Shown: in pieces, positions 2 through 6,721 of the stretch
Numbering within the stretch: position 1 is the first letter of the stretch
Layout: every line of letters starts with the position of its first letter
Program-made: the position numbers and the translations under genes
Assembly: GCA_900474095.1 (NCBI GenBank)
Contig: UCOA01000044.1
Location: 1 to 34,251, forward strand
Length of the DNA: 34,251 nt
Source of the DNA: Hyphomicrobiales bacterium
GTDB lineage: Bacteria; Pseudomonadota; Alphaproteobacteria; Rhizobiales; Rhizobiaceae
Reading direction: 5' to 3'
The notes under the pieces: model-generated
What the model saw: the letters and a program-made list of their open reading frames with translations, nothing else
Databases searched by the model: none
What the model was told of the DNA's origin: nothing

Positions 2-616
2 CTTGCCGAACCGGCCGAGCGGGTACGCGAGCTGAAATCGCACGAGGGCTCAGCCATCACACTGGCGACCAGGGCGGACTATGAGCCGATCTTCGATTTC
101 GCCCGCGCCACCGGCCTACGGCTAGAGGAATGCCTCTTGAAGTGGTCGGAAGTGGACTGGCAAACGGGATGGATCGTCAAGACCGGTAAGGGTGGCCGGC
201 TGGTGAAGACGGCAATCACGCCGACTGTTCGCGAGATCCTGTTGCCTCTGCGCGGCCACAACGCGGAATGGGTGTTCACCTATCAGGCCGCTCGCGTCCG
301 CAAGGCCAAATCTGCCTATAAGGGCGACGGCGAGGCTCGTCTTCGCGGCCAGCGCTACCCGATCACCTACAATGGCTTGAAGTCGCAATGGAAACAAATC
401 CGCGCGGCGGCTTCTGTCGAGGACTTCCGCTTCCATGATTTCCGCCACGACCTGGCAACCAAGCTCCTGCGCGCCACCGGCAATTTGAAGATGGTCCAGA
501 AGGCCCTCAGCCATGCCGATATTAAGACCACGACGCGCTATGCGCATGTGCTCGACGAGGAGGTTGCAGGAGCATTGGAGAAGCTATCGCGAAAGCAAAA
601 ACGGGGCGCTCGGTAG
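2..616 (+). CDS. Tyrosine-type site-specific integrase, 5'-truncated by window edge
   Basis: This is the C-terminal catalytic part of a phage/island tyrosine recombinase; the reading frame is open from position 2, so the N-terminal part lies outside the window. The catalytic set is visible in order: Arg in ATGLRLEE, Lys in KTGKGGR, His and Arg in HDFRHD (Arg of the HxxR box), His in LSHADI, and the nucleophile Tyr in TTTRYAHV. The HxxR box normally continues RHTF/RHTA, and here it reads RHDLATKLL. The enzyme would integrate and excise the island by strand exchange at a tRNA 3' end. Its position at the far end of the segment from the tRNA-Pro scar at 6457-6501 fits a mobile island. Family call is firm; the exact subfamily cannot be told from the fragment. 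Confidence 0.93.
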   Translation, partial: LAEPAERVRELKSHEGSAITLATRADYEPIFDFARATGLRLEECLLKWSEVDWQTGWIVKTGKGGRLVKTAITPTVREILLPLRGHNAEWVFTYQAARVRKAKSAYKGDGEARLRGQRYPITYNGLKSQWKQIRAAASVEDFRFHDFRHDLATKLLRATGNLKMVQKALSHADIKTTTRYAHVLDEEVAGALEKLSRKQKRGAR

Positions 617-832: not shown

Positions 833-3436
833 ATGGCGCTTTCAGATTTGACAGATCCCGCAGCTGTCACCGCTGCGATGGATGAGTTCGACCAGCTCGG
901 TCGAGAGAGTTTTCTCCAAAAGTACGGCTTCCGCCCTGCAAGAGCTTACTTCATCCGTCGAAATGGAAAGCATTACGATTCAAAGGCCATTGTGGGTGCT
1001 GCCCGCGGCTTCCAGCACTCCGAGCTTGGTAGCCTGCGCTCCGATGAATTTAGCGGTGGCGAGCAAACCGTTCGCGCACTTCTTGAAAGGCTGGGATTCG
1101 AGGTGGTTGTCGAAGAAGGGAACCAAGCACCCATCACCTCGCGGGATATCGAACTCATGAGGCAAAGCCGTGCCAAGGCTCGGTATACGGATTTTTCTGA
1201 GGAAGAGCGTTCAGCGTACCAAAGGGTTCATGCCGCCCTGGGTGAACTTGGCCATGTCGCCGTTGCGGAGCTCGGCGGCCCAACAAAGTATGTTCTGAAG
1301 CTAACTTCTGGATTTCATCCTTCCTCGGGCATTCGTGGAGGCAAGCCAAAGGACCTGTGGTTCGGTGTGTATCGGCGGGAAAACGAAGACCCCTTTCTCG
1401 GAAACCCTCAAATCTTCATGATCGTGTCCGAACGCGGTATTGAGTTTGGCTTTGGCGCTCTCACTCACCCCGACGACTTTTCGAACCAGGAAATTAAGAA
1501 TCGGGTCCGGGCGATTGCACCACAAGTGCTTCAGCTGCTTCCCCCGCCTGACTCAATCCAAGCGCAGGATCTGAGCGCGCGGCTTACAGAGACCGGACCT
1601 TGGTATTTTCGCCGAAAGCAGCGTCTCGAACCAAAGCAGTCAGAATATGTGCCTTTCGAACAATGGCTTAGGTTTGTTCGATCTCCCGATGGCGCCCGCA
1701 ACGCTGGAGGAGGCATCACGCAGTATCTACAAATTGACGAGGTTGATGGCGCCAACCTCAACGAGCTAGTCCGTCAGACAGTTTACGTTTTTGGTTCTCT
1801 AATGGAGGCGGTAAGCGCCAACAAGGAGCACGAATTGATCGCAATATCCGAAGGTCCCAGAGACAGCGCAGACCACGACTTACAGGTTGGCAATCGGGAG
1901 TTCGCCGATGCTCTCGGCACGTTCTTGGCGCAATTTGCAAAAGCGCGCGCTGAGCCATTTCAAAAGACCGAGAATCTGTGGGCGGCGATGGCTCGGGTTA
2001 AAGATCGACTTGAGCGTTTTCCGGCTGTGCAAAGCCGTAAGGATATCCTGGTTAGCATGAGTGTCGGACAGGGCAACTGGGCCAGCGTACCCTGGATCGC
2101 CCTGATGAACACCAAGGTTACGCGCTCAACGCAAGAAGGTGTCTCCGCTGTCTTTCTGATCGCAAAAAACCTCGAGCGAATTTTCCTTACTCTCAATCAA
2201 GGCACAACAAAGCTCGTCAATGAGCTTGGACAAACCGGTGCGCAAGCCCGAATGGAGGCTGTTGCCAAAGCAGCACGTGTTCAAATCTCTGATTCTCTGG
2301 GAAGCCGCTATTCGCTCGATAATCTCATTGATTTAGGAGCAACCGGCTGGCTTGCCAGGAACTATGAGTTCGGCACCATCGCGCACACGGATCTGGAGGC
2401 AAACAATCTCCCCTCCGATGAAGGCATGAATGAAATGCTAGAGGCTGTGCTCGCTGCTTATGACCAAGTCATTGATGCGCCCGAACGTCCTGCGCCGCTT
2501 CACAATGCTTCCGATACTCGAGACGCAGAAGAGAATGATTCGAGCGGACCCGAGCCTTACGCGATTGAAGATGCCCTTGATGATATCTTCATGGATCGCG
2601 ATGCGCTTGAACGGCTTCTGGCTATTTGGCACAGCAAGAAGAACTTAATACTCCAGGGTGCACCTGGCGTAGGAAAGAGCTATGTCGCAAAGCGGCTTGC
2701 TCAATTGTTGTTGGGGGCCAAAGACGCAAGCCGAATCGCGACCATTCAGTTCCATCAATCTTACAGCTATGAGGATTTCGTTCAGGGCTATCGCCCTGAC
2801 GGGGCGGGTGGCTTCGAGCTGCGAAATGGGATCTTTCACCGCTTCTGTGAAAAGGCGGATCGCTCGCCGGCCCTGCCTCACGTCTTCATCATCGATGAAA
2901 TCAATCGCGGAAATCTCTCAAAAATCCTCGGCGAGCTTATGTTGCTGGTGGAGCACGATAAACGCGGCCCCGGCTGGGCAACGACTTTGACATACTCAAA
3001 GGAGGGTGACGCTCCGTTCTTCGTTCCGGAAAATATCTACATCCTGGGCATGATGAACACCGCTGATCGGTCGCTCTCATTGGTGGACTACGCACTTAGG
3101 CGCAGATTCTCATTCGCATCGCTCGAGCCCATGTTCAATAGCCCGAAGTTGGGGGCCTTGCTGGAAGCGTGCGGTGTACCTGGCGAAATCGTAGCAATGA
3201 TCGTCGAGCGCATGAACGCGCTAAATCACACGATCGGCGACGATCGGGCCAATCTTGGGCCCGGGTACCGGATTGGACACAGCTTCTTCGTTCCGCCGTC
3301 CAAATTTCATTACGACGAGGGCTGGTATCGTCGCGTAATTGAGACTGAAATCTATCCTCTTCTTGAAGAGTACTGGTTCGATGATCCGGATAAGGCGCTT
3401 GACTGGCAAGCGCGCTTGCTTGCAGGCGCGCCGTGA
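833..3436 (+). CDS. McrB-like AAA+ GTPase with ScoMcrA-like N-terminal extension
   Basis: 867-residue protein, much longer than E. coli McrB (about 460). The AAA+ motor is in the C-terminal third: Walker A GAPGVGKS at 609-616, Walker B plus McrB signature IIDEINRGN at 686-694, the MNTADRS box at 741-747 and arginine-finger region LRRRF at 755-759. McrB proteins hydrolyse GTP and translocate DNA while driving the McrC nuclease. Residues about 5-95 (GRESFLQKYGF, YDSKAIVGAA, FSGGEQTV) resemble the N-terminal head domain of Streptomyces ScoMcrA. Residues about 390-545 resemble the MrcB/DUF3578 N-terminal domain. Residues about 120-380 are not recognised. The start is fixed by the ribosome site GGGGAGA just before the ATG and an in-frame stop upstream. 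The stop overlaps the mcrC-like start. AAA+ call is firm; N-terminal assignments are pattern matches only. Confidence 0.9.
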   Translation: MALSDLTDPAAVTAAMDEFDQLGRESFLQKYGFRPARAYFIRRNGKHYDSKAIVGAARGFQHSELGSLRSDEFSGGEQTVRALLERLGFEVVVEEGNQAPITSRDIELMRQSRAKARYTDFSEEERSAYQRVHAALGELGHVAVAELGGPTKYVLKLTSGFHPSSGIRGGKPKDLWFGVYRRENEDPFLGNPQIFMIVSERGIEFGFGALTHPDDFSNQEIKNRVRAIAPQVLQLLPPPDSIQAQDLSARLTETGPWYFRRKQRLEPKQSEYVPFEQWLRFVRSPDGARNAGGGITQYLQIDEVDGANLNELVRQTVYVFGSLMEAVSANKEHELIAISEGPRDSADHDLQVGNREFADALGTFLAQFAKARAEPFQKTENLWAAMARVKDRLERFPAVQSRKDILVSMSVGQGNWASVPWIALMNTKVTRSTQEGVSAVFLIAKNLERIFLTLNQGTTKLVNELGQTGAQARMEAVAKAARVQISDSLGSRYSLDNLIDLGATGWLARNYEFGTIAHTDLEANNLPSDEGMNEMLEAVLAAYDQVIDAPERPAPLHNASDTRDAEENDSSGPEPYAIEDALDDIFMDRDALERLLAIWHSKKNLILQGAPGVGKSYVAKRLAQLLLGAKDASRIATIQFHQSYSYEDFVQGYRPDGAGGFELRNGIFHRFCEKADRSPALPHVFIIDEINRGNLSKILGELMLLVEHDKRGPGWATTLTYSKEGDAPFFVPENIYILGMMNTADRSLSLVDYALRRRFSFASLEPMFNSPKLGALLEACGVPGEIVAMIVERMNALNHTIGDDRANLGPGYRIGHSFFVPPSKFHYDEGWYRRVIETEIYPLLEEYWFDDPDKALDWQARLLAGAP

Positions 3437-4512
3437 AAATACCGATCCGGAACCTTTATTATCTCTTCCTCTACGCATGGGATCGTTTCCCGGGCGGAGC
3501 GCTGACGAGTGCTGGTCTCGACGACAGCCCGGATCTCCCCAATTTACTGGCGCGCCTTTTATCGTCCGGTACCAAACGCTTGGTTCGCCGCGGGTTGGAC
3601 CGGGATTACAGGGCTTTCACCGAAGAGTTGGTGAGCCCTCGTGGCCGACTACGACTAGACCGCATGGCGAAGGAGACTACCAAGCTTCGGGGAACGGTCG
3701 TCTGCGATATTGATGAACTTTCCCATGACGTCCTGCACAACCAGATCCTAAAATCAACCCTGTCCAGTCTCGGCCGTAGTCCCGAGGTCGAAAAAGCTAC
3801 GAGGCATGAACTGCGGGCACTTGCCAGTCGATTTCCGGACGTCTTAGACATTCGCGTTTCCGGTGGGTTGTTCCGGCGGATTGCGGTCTCGCGGAACAAT
3901 CGAGAGTACGCGTTCCTTATGCGTATCTGTGAATTCCTATTCTGGTCGCTGATGCCGGACCAAAATGGGGCCGAGGTGCGGTTCCAGAGGATCCTCGAAG
4001 ATGAGACGAAGATGTCCTCGGTCTTCGAAAAATTCCTCCGTAGCTTCTACCAAATTCATCGGCCCGAATACCGGGTTCGTGCGGAGGCGCCAGCCTGGCA
4101 TGTTTCTGACGCGACCGAGGCTGATTTGGCTCTGCTCCCCCGCATGATCACCGATATCACGCTGCGGGGCCGCGACAGGACTATCATTGTCGACGCAAAA
4201 TTCTACAGAGCGGCATTGGCACCGAGTCCGTTTGGTGAGCGGGTCAGGTCGCAGCACCTATATCAGTTGATCACATATCTCCAACACGAGCGCGCCCGAC
4301 GCGATGGAGGGACGGTTGTCGGCATGCTTCTTTACCCGCAGGTCGGAAGGCAACTTCGCCTGCAGTACCGACTGCTTGGTATCCCAACAATCGTCGCAAC
4401 CGTCGACTTGGGACAGGATTGGCAGAGTGTCGAGGCTGAGCTCCACCAACTCATCGACATCTGCGGGGAATATCGGCAACCGATAGTCGACGGCCGTGAA
4501 CAGGTACTCTGA
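3433..4512 (+). CDS. McrC-like PD-(D/E)XK restriction endonuclease subunit
   Basis: 359 residues, the size of McrC-family proteins. It starts with GTG inside a GTGA overlap with the stop of the mcrB-like gene, so the two are translationally coupled as in classical mcrBC. The N-terminus (IPIRNLYYLFLYAWDRF) has the usual McrC beginning, which is thought to contact the McrB ring. The nuclease core is visible as Asp241 in ITDITL, Asp254-Ala-Lys256 in IIVDAKFY and a following helix with QLYQLITYL-like Gln/Tyr. These match the D...DxK metal-binding set of McrC nucleases. The family cuts DNA when the partner motor is loaded at a modified recognition site. Nothing appears truncated. The modification recognised cannot be deduced from this subunit. 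Confidence 0.88.
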   Translation: MKIPIRNLYYLFLYAWDRFPGGALTSAGLDDSPDLPNLLARLLSSGTKRLVRRGLDRDYRAFTEELVSPRGRLRLDRMAKETTKLRGTVVCDIDELSHDVLHNQILKSTLSSLGRSPEVEKATRHELRALASRFPDVLDIRVSGGLFRRIAVSRNNREYAFLMRICEFLFWSLMPDQNGAEVRFQRILEDETKMSSVFEKFLRSFYQIHRPEYRVRAEAPAWHVSDATEADLALLPRMITDITLRGRDRTIIVDAKFYRAALAPSPFGERVRSQHLYQLITYLQHERARRDGGTVVGMLLYPQVGRQLRLQYRLLGIPTIVATVDLGQDWQSVEAELHQLIDICGEYRQPIVDGREQVL

Positions 4513-4557
4513 GAGCAAATGGCGCAGGCATGATCGCGGCTTAAGCGGGGTTCGACA

Positions 4558-6249
4558 ATGGAAAGGCGGAGTGCGCAGAAGGACGGTAATGCAGCTTGGC
4601 GCGATGTCCGGAGGCAGGTGCTTGAACGCGACCGGAATTGCTGTGTGAGCTGCTCAGTGTCTGTCACCTCTGCTGAGGCTGACATACACCATCTGTTGCC
4701 ACGGTCTATGGGGGGAACAGACGAACTTTCCAACCTCATCACGCTATGTGACGGGTGTCATGCTGCTCACCATCCCAATCTTGCCGGAGGGTTAGCGCGA
4801 GGCCTTATAGAGCGCTGGGCTGTAAGGCTGGCTCGATGGATTGACACCACTGGTTCGAGCCAGGCTCTGGTCAACTTCGGCCCGGCTCTTCGCCTGTTTG
4901 GAGTCCATCGTTTTCGTGAAGGTCAGCTTCCGATCGTTCTGGCTGCCCTCTGTGGGAAGTCCGTGCTTGTAGTAAGCCCCACTGGATCCGGAAAGACCCT
5001 CTGTTTTCAACTACCAGCCATGCTGCGTCATGGCCCAACGATCGTGGTTAGTCCGCTAAAGACCTTGATGGCCGACCAGGTCTCGAACCTATTGTCACGG
5101 AAGATCCCTGCGACTTTCATCAATTCCGATCTCGCGAAAGATGAGAAGCGGATCAGATTTGAGCTACTTAAAAAAGGGGCGATCAAGCTGCTCTATCTCG
5201 CACCTGAAAGATTTTTCGTGCGCAGCGAGGAGGAGCGGAACGGCCTTAAGCGAACACGACCTTCGTTCCTCGTTATCGACGAGGCTCATTGTGTGGACCA
5301 GTGGGGACGAGACTTTCGCCCCGAGTACGGAAGGCTACACGAAGTCCGGGAGAAATTGGGCAAGCCTACTGTACTGGCTTTCACGGCGACCGCCGGGCGA
5401 GAGATGCAGCAACGTATCCTGAGCTCACTTGGTGTGAACGACGCTGTCATCTTCGTCAGGGGCGTTGACCGTCCCAATATCGCTCTCGTCAGAGTGAAGG
5501 CTCATGAGAGCGAGCGCGTGAATGAGATCGCCAAACTGCTTCGTTTGCGAGAACTGCAGGGGCAGAAAGCCATGATTTTCGTACCGTCCGTCGCAGTCGG
5601 CGAGAGGCTCAAAAATGCATTGGCACAGCTCGGGCTTGAGATTCCATTCTATCATTCCAGCCTGGGTACCCCATGGGAACGTCAAGAGCTTGTAAAGAGG
5701 TTCGTGGGGCAGAGTAGGCCTGTTGCGGACCAGATCATTTGCACCAACGCATTCGGGATGGGTCTCGATGTTCCGAACGTCCGTTTGGTGGTGCACTGGC
5801 AACAGTCGGCGTCAGTCGAAGACCAGCTTCAAGAATATGGAAGGGCTGGGCGTGACGGACGCGCTTCAGCTGCCGTCATTTTCCACGAAGGAAGACCAGA
5901 GGGACGTGATGTCGGGCGGTTGAAGTTCATGGCCGAAAAAACTGCCGAAGCTGCAAAGCTAAGCGAAATCGAGTCCATCCGCATGCGCGAACGTCGATTC
6001 AGGCAAATCGATCAGGTCAGTGCGATCTTGCACTCCAGTTCATGCGTCCGGGAAGCTGTGATCGACTACTTCGAGGGGGCCAAGAAACGCCAGCCTCTTT
6101 CGCTATCTACGCGAATCCTTGATTGGGTTTTCGGCAGCCGCCATGAGGCGGCGAAAATTCGTTTCTGCTGTGATCATTGCGATGCTGCATTGATAAAGAA
6201 ATCTGGTGCCGTTGGATATGTGGCTGAGGCGGTGCGCGGGCGGCGCTAG
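4558..6249 (+). CDS. HNH nuclease fused to RecQ-type DEAH helicase
   Basis: 563 residues with two modules. Residues about 14-75 form an HNH/McrA-type nuclease: CxxC at 29-32, paired His at 44-45 in DIHHLLPRSMGG, Asn59, CxxC at 64-67 and His68/71/72. Residues about 105-545 are a superfamily 2 RecQ helicase: PTGSGKT (141-147), DEAH (241-244), AFTATA (274-279) and QEYGRAGRDG (425-434). A partial RecQ zinc site follows (Cys496, Cys537/538, Cys541), with one Cys of the usual set apparently absent. There is no HRDC domain. Ordinary RecQ has no HNH domain. The gene begins 45 bp after the mcrC-like gene on the same strand, so it probably belongs to the same operon and supplies a second nuclease and an unwinding motor. 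Function as defence is inferred from domains and context. Confidence 0.9.
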   Translation: MERRSAQKDGNAAWRDVRRQVLERDRNCCVSCSVSVTSAEADIHHLLPRSMGGTDELSNLITLCDGCHAAHHPNLAGGLARGLIERWAVRLARWIDTTGSSQALVNFGPALRLFGVHRFREGQLPIVLAALCGKSVLVVSPTGSGKTLCFQLPAMLRHGPTIVVSPLKTLMADQVSNLLSRKIPATFINSDLAKDEKRIRFELLKKGAIKLLYLAPERFFVRSEEERNGLKRTRPSFLVIDEAHCVDQWGRDFRPEYGRLHEVREKLGKPTVLAFTATAGREMQQRILSSLGVNDAVIFVRGVDRPNIALVRVKAHESERVNEIAKLLRLRELQGQKAMIFVPSVAVGERLKNALAQLGLEIPFYHSSLGTPWERQELVKRFVGQSRPVADQIICTNAFGMGLDVPNVRLVVHWQQSASVEDQLQEYGRAGRDGRASAAVIFHEGRPEGRDVGRLKFMAEKTAEAAKLSEIESIRMRERRFRQIDQVSAILHSSSCVREAVIDYFEGAKKRQPLSLSTRILDWVFGSRHEAAKIRFCCDHCDAALIKKSGAVGYVAEAVRGRR

Positions 6250-6501: not shown

Positions 6502-6721
6502 AAAACCTTTTGATTTCCTCCAGATCGTCCTTTTCCATTTTCCTAGCTACCGGAAGAAAACGGAACAAAAAGGCGACGAATCGCGGTTTTGGTAGCACAG
6601 TCCCTAGAACAAAACAGACATCTGTCCAAGGGATGTTCCCACCGGAAATGGTGGTCAAGTCAATCTACAGGACCGGCCGTTAATGCTGGTACTTTGAGCG
6701 ACTACGTGCTTCAAAAACCGC

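Follow-up and report, generated by a model that had tools for sequence, protein, structure and literature searches.

The window, i.e. the whole stretch of 34,251 nucleotides that was analysed, encodes McrB and McrC, a predicted pair for type IV restriction, and behind them on the same strand a protein in which an HNH nuclease is fused to the core of a RecQ helicase (hereafter HNH-RecQ). Comparison of these genes with their relatives indicates that they probably represent two neighbouring modules at a tRNA-Pro gene, namely the McrBC pair and a separately inherited HNH-RecQ gene, which is most likely defensive and would not require McrBC. As a helicase-nuclease gene HNH-RecQ is distinct and seems not to have been described. 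The features on which this reading rests are the following:

2..616, + strand: tyrosine recombinase (phage-type integrase), C-terminal part; Pfam Phage_integrase 1e-24, PHROG integrase 1e-30
833..3436, + strand: McrB, 867 aa, with a long N-terminal region, an MrcB_N domain and an AAA+ GTPase
848..1105, + strand: McrA-like part of McrB, residues 6-91, resembling the N-terminal part of 5zmm, a McrA protein of 561 aa with a solved structure (E 2e-8)
1925..2470, + strand: MrcB_N domain (PF12102) of McrB, residues 365-546 (Pfam 9e-38)
2642..3109, + strand: AAA_5 GTPase core of McrB, residues 604-759 (Pfam 2e-23), with GAPGVGKS, DEIN and NTADR motifs
3433..4512, + strand: McrC nuclease subunit, 359 aa, GTG start, overlapping McrB by 4 bases
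4558..6249, + strand: HNH nuclease fused to a RecQ helicase core, 563 aa, recognised by Pfam, PADLOC, NCBIfam, alignment and fold match
4642..4773, + strand: HNH nuclease domain, residues 29-72, with two Cys pairs (Pfam HNH 4e-8, HNH_5 6e-9)
4891..6180, + strand: RecQ helicase core (DEAD 1e-26, Helicase_C 3e-18), with C-terminal cysteines C496, C537, C538 and C541
6457..6501, + strand: 45-bp copy of the 3' end of tRNA-Pro(GGG), taken as an attachment-site repeat

The McrBC pair and its genomic setting

The three open reading frames are real genes, look intact and lie in series on one strand, a gap of 45 bases separating McrC from HNH-RecQ. A preliminary description of this DNA had proposed both the operon-like layout and the identities of the three genes; the former is evident from the single strand, the short overlap and the short gap, and the latter hold by Pfam, NCBIfam and structure-sequence matches as well as by motifs. 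Given the size of the gap, HNH-RecQ may be co-transcribed with mcrBC in the window. The GTPase of McrB carries Walker A, Walker B and NTxDR motifs and its residues 571-864 match E. coli McrB structures (E 5e-100); its score of 343 bits against the NCBIfam McrB model PRK11331 lies below the 637-bit cut-off of this E. coli-type equivalog. Similarly, McrC contains a Pfam McrBC domain (1e-30), aligns with E. coli McrC through its residues 3-347 (7e-55) and scores 298 bits against NCBIfam McrC PRK09736, which is below the cut-off of 338 bits. Its gene adjoins mcrB and its product displays a TDI...DAK nuclease motif, presumably of the PD-(D/E)xK type. In McrBC systems McrB senses modified DNA and undergoes GTP-driven translocation, and McrC does the cutting. 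The pair in the window is best read as ordinary, intact McrBC for type IV restriction in which McrB has an unusual N-terminus, its activities being predicted from sequence. With E. coli K-12 McrBC it shares the combination of an McrB GTPase bearing MrcB_N with an McrC nuclease, the overlap of the two genes and the motifs, but the 867-aa McrB of the window differs by an N-terminal extension of about 360 residues.

Pfam recovered no match for residues 1-369 of McrB, and the PADLOC mREase_IV profile PDLC03662 matches its N-terminus at positions 1-90. Beyond the first 90 residues, which are 5zmm/McrA-like, the rest of the ~360-residue N-terminal region (848-1936) is conserved in L053, the locus with the closest McrBC relative found for the window (McrB 48% identical over 873 columns). 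This region may be a new modification sensor. A single-sequence structure model of it reached a pLDDT of only 39 and no use was made of it. A scan of viral contigs yielded no relatives of McrB.

The integrase upstream of McrB is cut by the contig start, the first base of contig C82 being also the first of the window. On the other side of the three genes, the tRNA-Pro border repeat extends to position 6600 at 90% (a 147-bp repeat). An exact second copy of the 45-bp stretch lies inside an intact tRNA-Pro on contig C119 (50052-50096), and the genome contains no further copies, with up to 2 mismatches, beyond these two. The outer flank of the tRNA-Pro on C119 matches genus relatives, and its inner side hardly does so. 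Among eight genus relatives examined the 45-bp stretch is matched in seven, with a whole tRNA-Pro called by ARAGORN in five, and the distance there between the tRNA-Pro and the core genes, the same ones as come next in the window, varies. Taken together, the integrase, the repeat in the window and on C119, and the layout of the relatives place the three genes at one end, the integrase end, of an island integrated at tRNA-Pro and split over contigs. The island setting suggested by the preliminary description is therefore borne out. A scan of seven genes on the side of C119 showed two that are lysis- or tail-like and one that is ligase-like, which makes it possible that the element is a prophage or a composite island. 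The tail-lysozyme-, endopeptidase- and DNA ligase-like genes lie at C119 40000-50051 (L080), on the inner side of the tRNA-Pro.

The HNH-RecQ protein

The helicase part of HNH-RecQ retrieved RecQ catalytic cores as the best matches in both sequence and fold searches, and the protein scores 303 bits against the RecQ family model TIGR00614, above the cut-off of 220 bits. Against TIGR01389, the equivalog of full-length bacterial RecQ, it reaches 313 bits with a cut-off of 640, the match stopping at model position 383 of 591, and RecQ_Zn_bind scores under its Pfam cut-off. The protein is presumably too short to accommodate the winged-helix and HRDC domains of a full RecQ. It resembles RecQ (TIGR00614; 1oyw) in its helicase motifs and four C-terminal cysteines, but differs from it by the N-terminal HNH domain and a shorter C-terminus. 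The same genome has a further RecQ-like gene on contig C144, with 38% identity in the helicase part, indicating that HNH-RecQ is an extra copy. Among proteins in the PDB the HNH part comes nearest by sequence to a group II intron maturase, an IscB and the HNH domain of McrA (5-methylcytosine restriction enzyme A). The structure model of HNH-RecQ has a pLDDT of 62, with values under 50 for residues 40-119, which take in most of the HNH domain, and only its RecQ fold match was used.

Twenty-three proteins were aligned, namely that of the window and those of 22 of the 28 related loci described below; L027, L029, L028 and L036 were left out because L026 or L038 already represents their layout (in addition, L036 is cut off by the end of its contig), and L035 and L037 because their copies are broken. 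In this alignment C32, D42, H44, H45, N59, C64, C67, H68, H71 and H72 of the HNH domain are invariant and C29 nearly so, and the helicase motifs and the four C-terminal cysteines are likewise invariant, which implies that both halves of the protein are under selection.

RecQ proteins travel 3' to 5'. The RecQ core of the fusion could accordingly be pictured as moving in this direction on DNA with single-stranded parts, while the HNH domain would nick or cut the strands opened by the motor, this being the simplest view of an N-terminal HNH domain joined to a RecQ core. The substrate might be replicating or already cut foreign DNA. In the adjoining module McrB would bind DNA, probably modified, via its N-terminal region, hydrolyse GTP and translocate, and McrC would cut. 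Should the HNH-RecQ family prove protective, it would offer a compact gene in which HNH cutting is coupled to a RecQ motor, and which could be tested for a part in finishing off restriction products before repair.

A PADLOC profile labelled DpdF (PDLC02859) matches HNH-RecQ with 806 bits over profile positions 2-525 of 545 and thus describes the same protein family, so that the family is not wholly uncatalogued. The earlier suggestion that the locus is undescribed accordingly survives in part: the third protein is already covered by this model, and no paper naming the fusion is recognisable among the literature matches listed, which were drawn from open-licence literature. Membership in the Dpd (7-deazaguanine) system, a candidate prompted by the PADLOC name, was not adopted, as HNH-RecQ scores 143 bits against the NCBIfam DpdF model NF041063 (813 positions), far under its equivalog cut-off of 550 bits. 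DpdD was recovered in none of 23 genomes, in a search that lacked a working positive control. The PDLC02859 label can misname genes of the HNH-RecQ type and may give false Dpd calls in alphaproteobacteria.

Among described systems, Hna is a Sinorhizobium helicase-nuclease phage-defence gene which, according to its description (PMC13381803), likewise couples an ATPase and a nuclease for phage defence in a rhizobium, but acts as a 3'-5' ssDNA exonuclease; the likeness to HNH-RecQ is one of description only. The addition of helicases or nucleases to McrBC loci is a known theme from CoCoNuT and other McrBC variants, but the added helicases are UPF1-like SF1 or YprA-like enzymes in the passages considered (PMC11090510). 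In the main text of the latter paper HNH and RecQ both have zero occurrences, and in a preprint on YprA helicases RecQ has none and HNH occurs once, in a reference title.

Co-occurrence of HNH-RecQ and McrBC

According to the preliminary description, the three genes would form a dedicated extended type IV system in which HNH-RecQ unwinds and degrades the DNA cut by McrBC. A scan of genome_contigs recovered 28 loci with relatives of HNH-RecQ, 27 of whose records name an alphaproteobacterium, the record of L016 reading only 'Pseudomonadota bacterium'. In a single one of these, L031 from Bradyrhizobium sp. NAS96.2, the gene stands directly behind mcrBC, and here the order mcrB-mcrC-HNH-RecQ and the common strand are those of the window, with gaps before HNH-RecQ of 23 bases in L031 and 45 in the window; the two loci are 36-40% identical in McrBC and 58% identical in HNH-RecQ. 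McrBC-like genes also flank HNH-RecQ in L033, the sister of L031: immediately upstream of it, on the opposite strand, is a match resembling the McrB N-terminus, and at 4.7-7.4 kb on its downstream side there are divergent matches to McrB and McrC. While these arrangements favour a three-gene system, the wider distribution of the genes argues against it. The 28 loci belong to 26 genomes (L032 and L037 share assemblies with L026 and L027), 25 of which are devoid of McrC at E<=1e-20, the exception being the genome of L031; the distant McrC-like match of L033 (24%) falls short of this limit. In a family sample of 297 genomes, HNH-RecQ (E<=1e-100) is present in four and McrC (E<=1e-30) in six, with only the window's own genome in both lists, and none of the five other McrC loci, i.e. 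L053 and four more, has HNH-RecQ in the 14-18 kb fetched around each. Wider samples added no further HNH-RecQ among 384 other genomes of the class (at 1e-80), 296 of the order (at 1e-100) and 298 of the phylum (at 1e-100).

Thus, a conserved co-occurrence of McrB, McrC and HNH-RecQ was not found. In 27 of the 28 relatives HNH-RecQ lies elsewhere than directly behind mcrBC, an outcome that the preliminary description itself had named as speaking against its proposal. The case for a conserved three-gene restriction system is weaker than first thought and not supported, and a dedicated system of this kind appears unlikely. Given that its relatives mostly occur without McrBC, HNH-RecQ instead looks like a separate gene added beside the pair. 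Phylogenetic trees point in the same direction. In the HNH-RecQ tree, which also included L050 and L052, L031 pairs with L033 (100/99) and the window falls beside a clade of Mesorhizobium/Aminobacter, though without strong support (83/87). In the tree of McrC the partner of the window is L053 (98/100), which has no HNH-RecQ in its fetched flanks. Judging from these placements, the pairings of mcrBC with HNH-RecQ in the window and in L031 would most simply represent separate events.

A further McrB gene, of the same cluster in both Bradyrhizobium loci, lies downstream of HNH-RecQ (L031 7075-8604; L033 14646-18049), divergent from a shared gene of ~250-290 aa. These genes imply that the Bradyrhizobium islands collect McrB-type genes, and given that the second McrB of L031 belongs to the cluster of that in L033, the closeness to McrBC may be inherited in this pair. 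A coupling between HNH-RecQ and restriction nucleases is kept open by the gene order of L031, by the McrBC genes about 5 kb away in L033 and by L023, where HNH-RecQ follows a type III pair.

Neighbourhoods of HNH-RecQ and its possible role

Among 34 hand-picked neighbouring genes scanned in the 28 loci, restriction- or defence-type genes (or adjacent McrBC) were detected in nine loci. These comprise a type IIG enzyme (L011 and L024), AbiEii (L012), BrxL (L014), a Vsr-like gene (L022), type III Mod-Res (L023), the adjoining McrBC (L031), PDC-S41 (L032) and NACHT (L033). The remaining loci have recombinase, exonuclease, NYN/OST-HTH, radical-SAM or efflux genes nearby. Within this hand-picked set, the variety of the defence-type neighbours suggests, rather than proves, a role of HNH-RecQ in defence.

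One could accordingly envisage HNH-RecQ as a follow-up enzyme that is plugged in behind McrBC or a type III nuclease subunit and destroys the cut products. Consistent with this, it stands behind mcrC in both the window and L031, directly behind the type III Mod-Res pair in L023, no more than 132 bases away by a heuristic start call and with a weak match for Res, and downstream of the type IIG enzyme in L024 with two ORFs between. However, the ORF upstream of HNH-RecQ is on the opposite strand in 16 of the 28 loci (heuristic gene calls), suggesting that the gene has its own promoter there, and 19 loci are without any restriction or defence gene among the hand-picked neighbours scanned; a plug-in enzyme of this kind is considered unlikely. 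Somewhat easier to entertain, if still doubtful, is the proposal that HNH-RecQ defines an undescribed, self-standing alphaproteobacterial defence family, which was recruited on more than one occasion directly behind a restriction nuclease, twice McrC and once type III Res, to destroy as a general second stage the DNA cut by any restriction system present.

Yet another reading gives HNH-RecQ a part in the maintenance of mobile elements or in their DNA processing, and none in defence. This would agree with a mobilizable Mesorhizobium plasmid that carries a copy close to IS66 and Hxs genes, with the integrase upstream of HNH-RecQ in L016, and with the resolvase-type recombinase downstream of it in L026, whose layout recurs in L027 and L029. 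Nevertheless, the nine loci with restriction- or defence-type neighbours are at odds with it, the viral_contigs scan gave no close relatives, and none of 25 matches in phage records covers 80% of the query, the eight matches listed being confined to the helicase part; this reading is considered unlikely. A phage origin of HNH-RecQ was rejected on the same viral-contig and phage matches. The reading as two neighbouring modules thus remains the preferred one, and HNH-RecQ merits a test as a stand-alone or plug-in defence lead.

Several other features of these neighbourhoods were observed. Four loci from Mesorhizobium/Aminobacter have radical-SAM genes of one cluster at up to ~5 kb from HNH-RecQ (L012 1691-3390, L013 10911-14294, L015 3106-4518 and L017 11957-15301), and hxsB/hxsC of the His-Xaa-Ser system lie near the copy on the Mesorhizobium plasmid NZ_AP023260.1 (167902-170468); from their size and order, the radical-SAM clusters would be the same Hxs genes. 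Broken or truncated copies of HNH-RecQ, as expected for a gene that is gained and lost, are present in L035 (9001-10666), L037 (9001-10190) and L051 (8284-9153), the hosts being Rhizobium, Afipia and the second replicon of a family relative. In two Mesorhizobium loci HNH-RecQ is followed after ~45 bases, on the same strand, by a gene combining NYN and OST-HTH (LOTUS) domains (L014 10696-11484 and L017 10728-11531; domains identified by Pfam on the L014 copy), whose cluster mates are convergent downstream of HNH-RecQ in L018 and L021.
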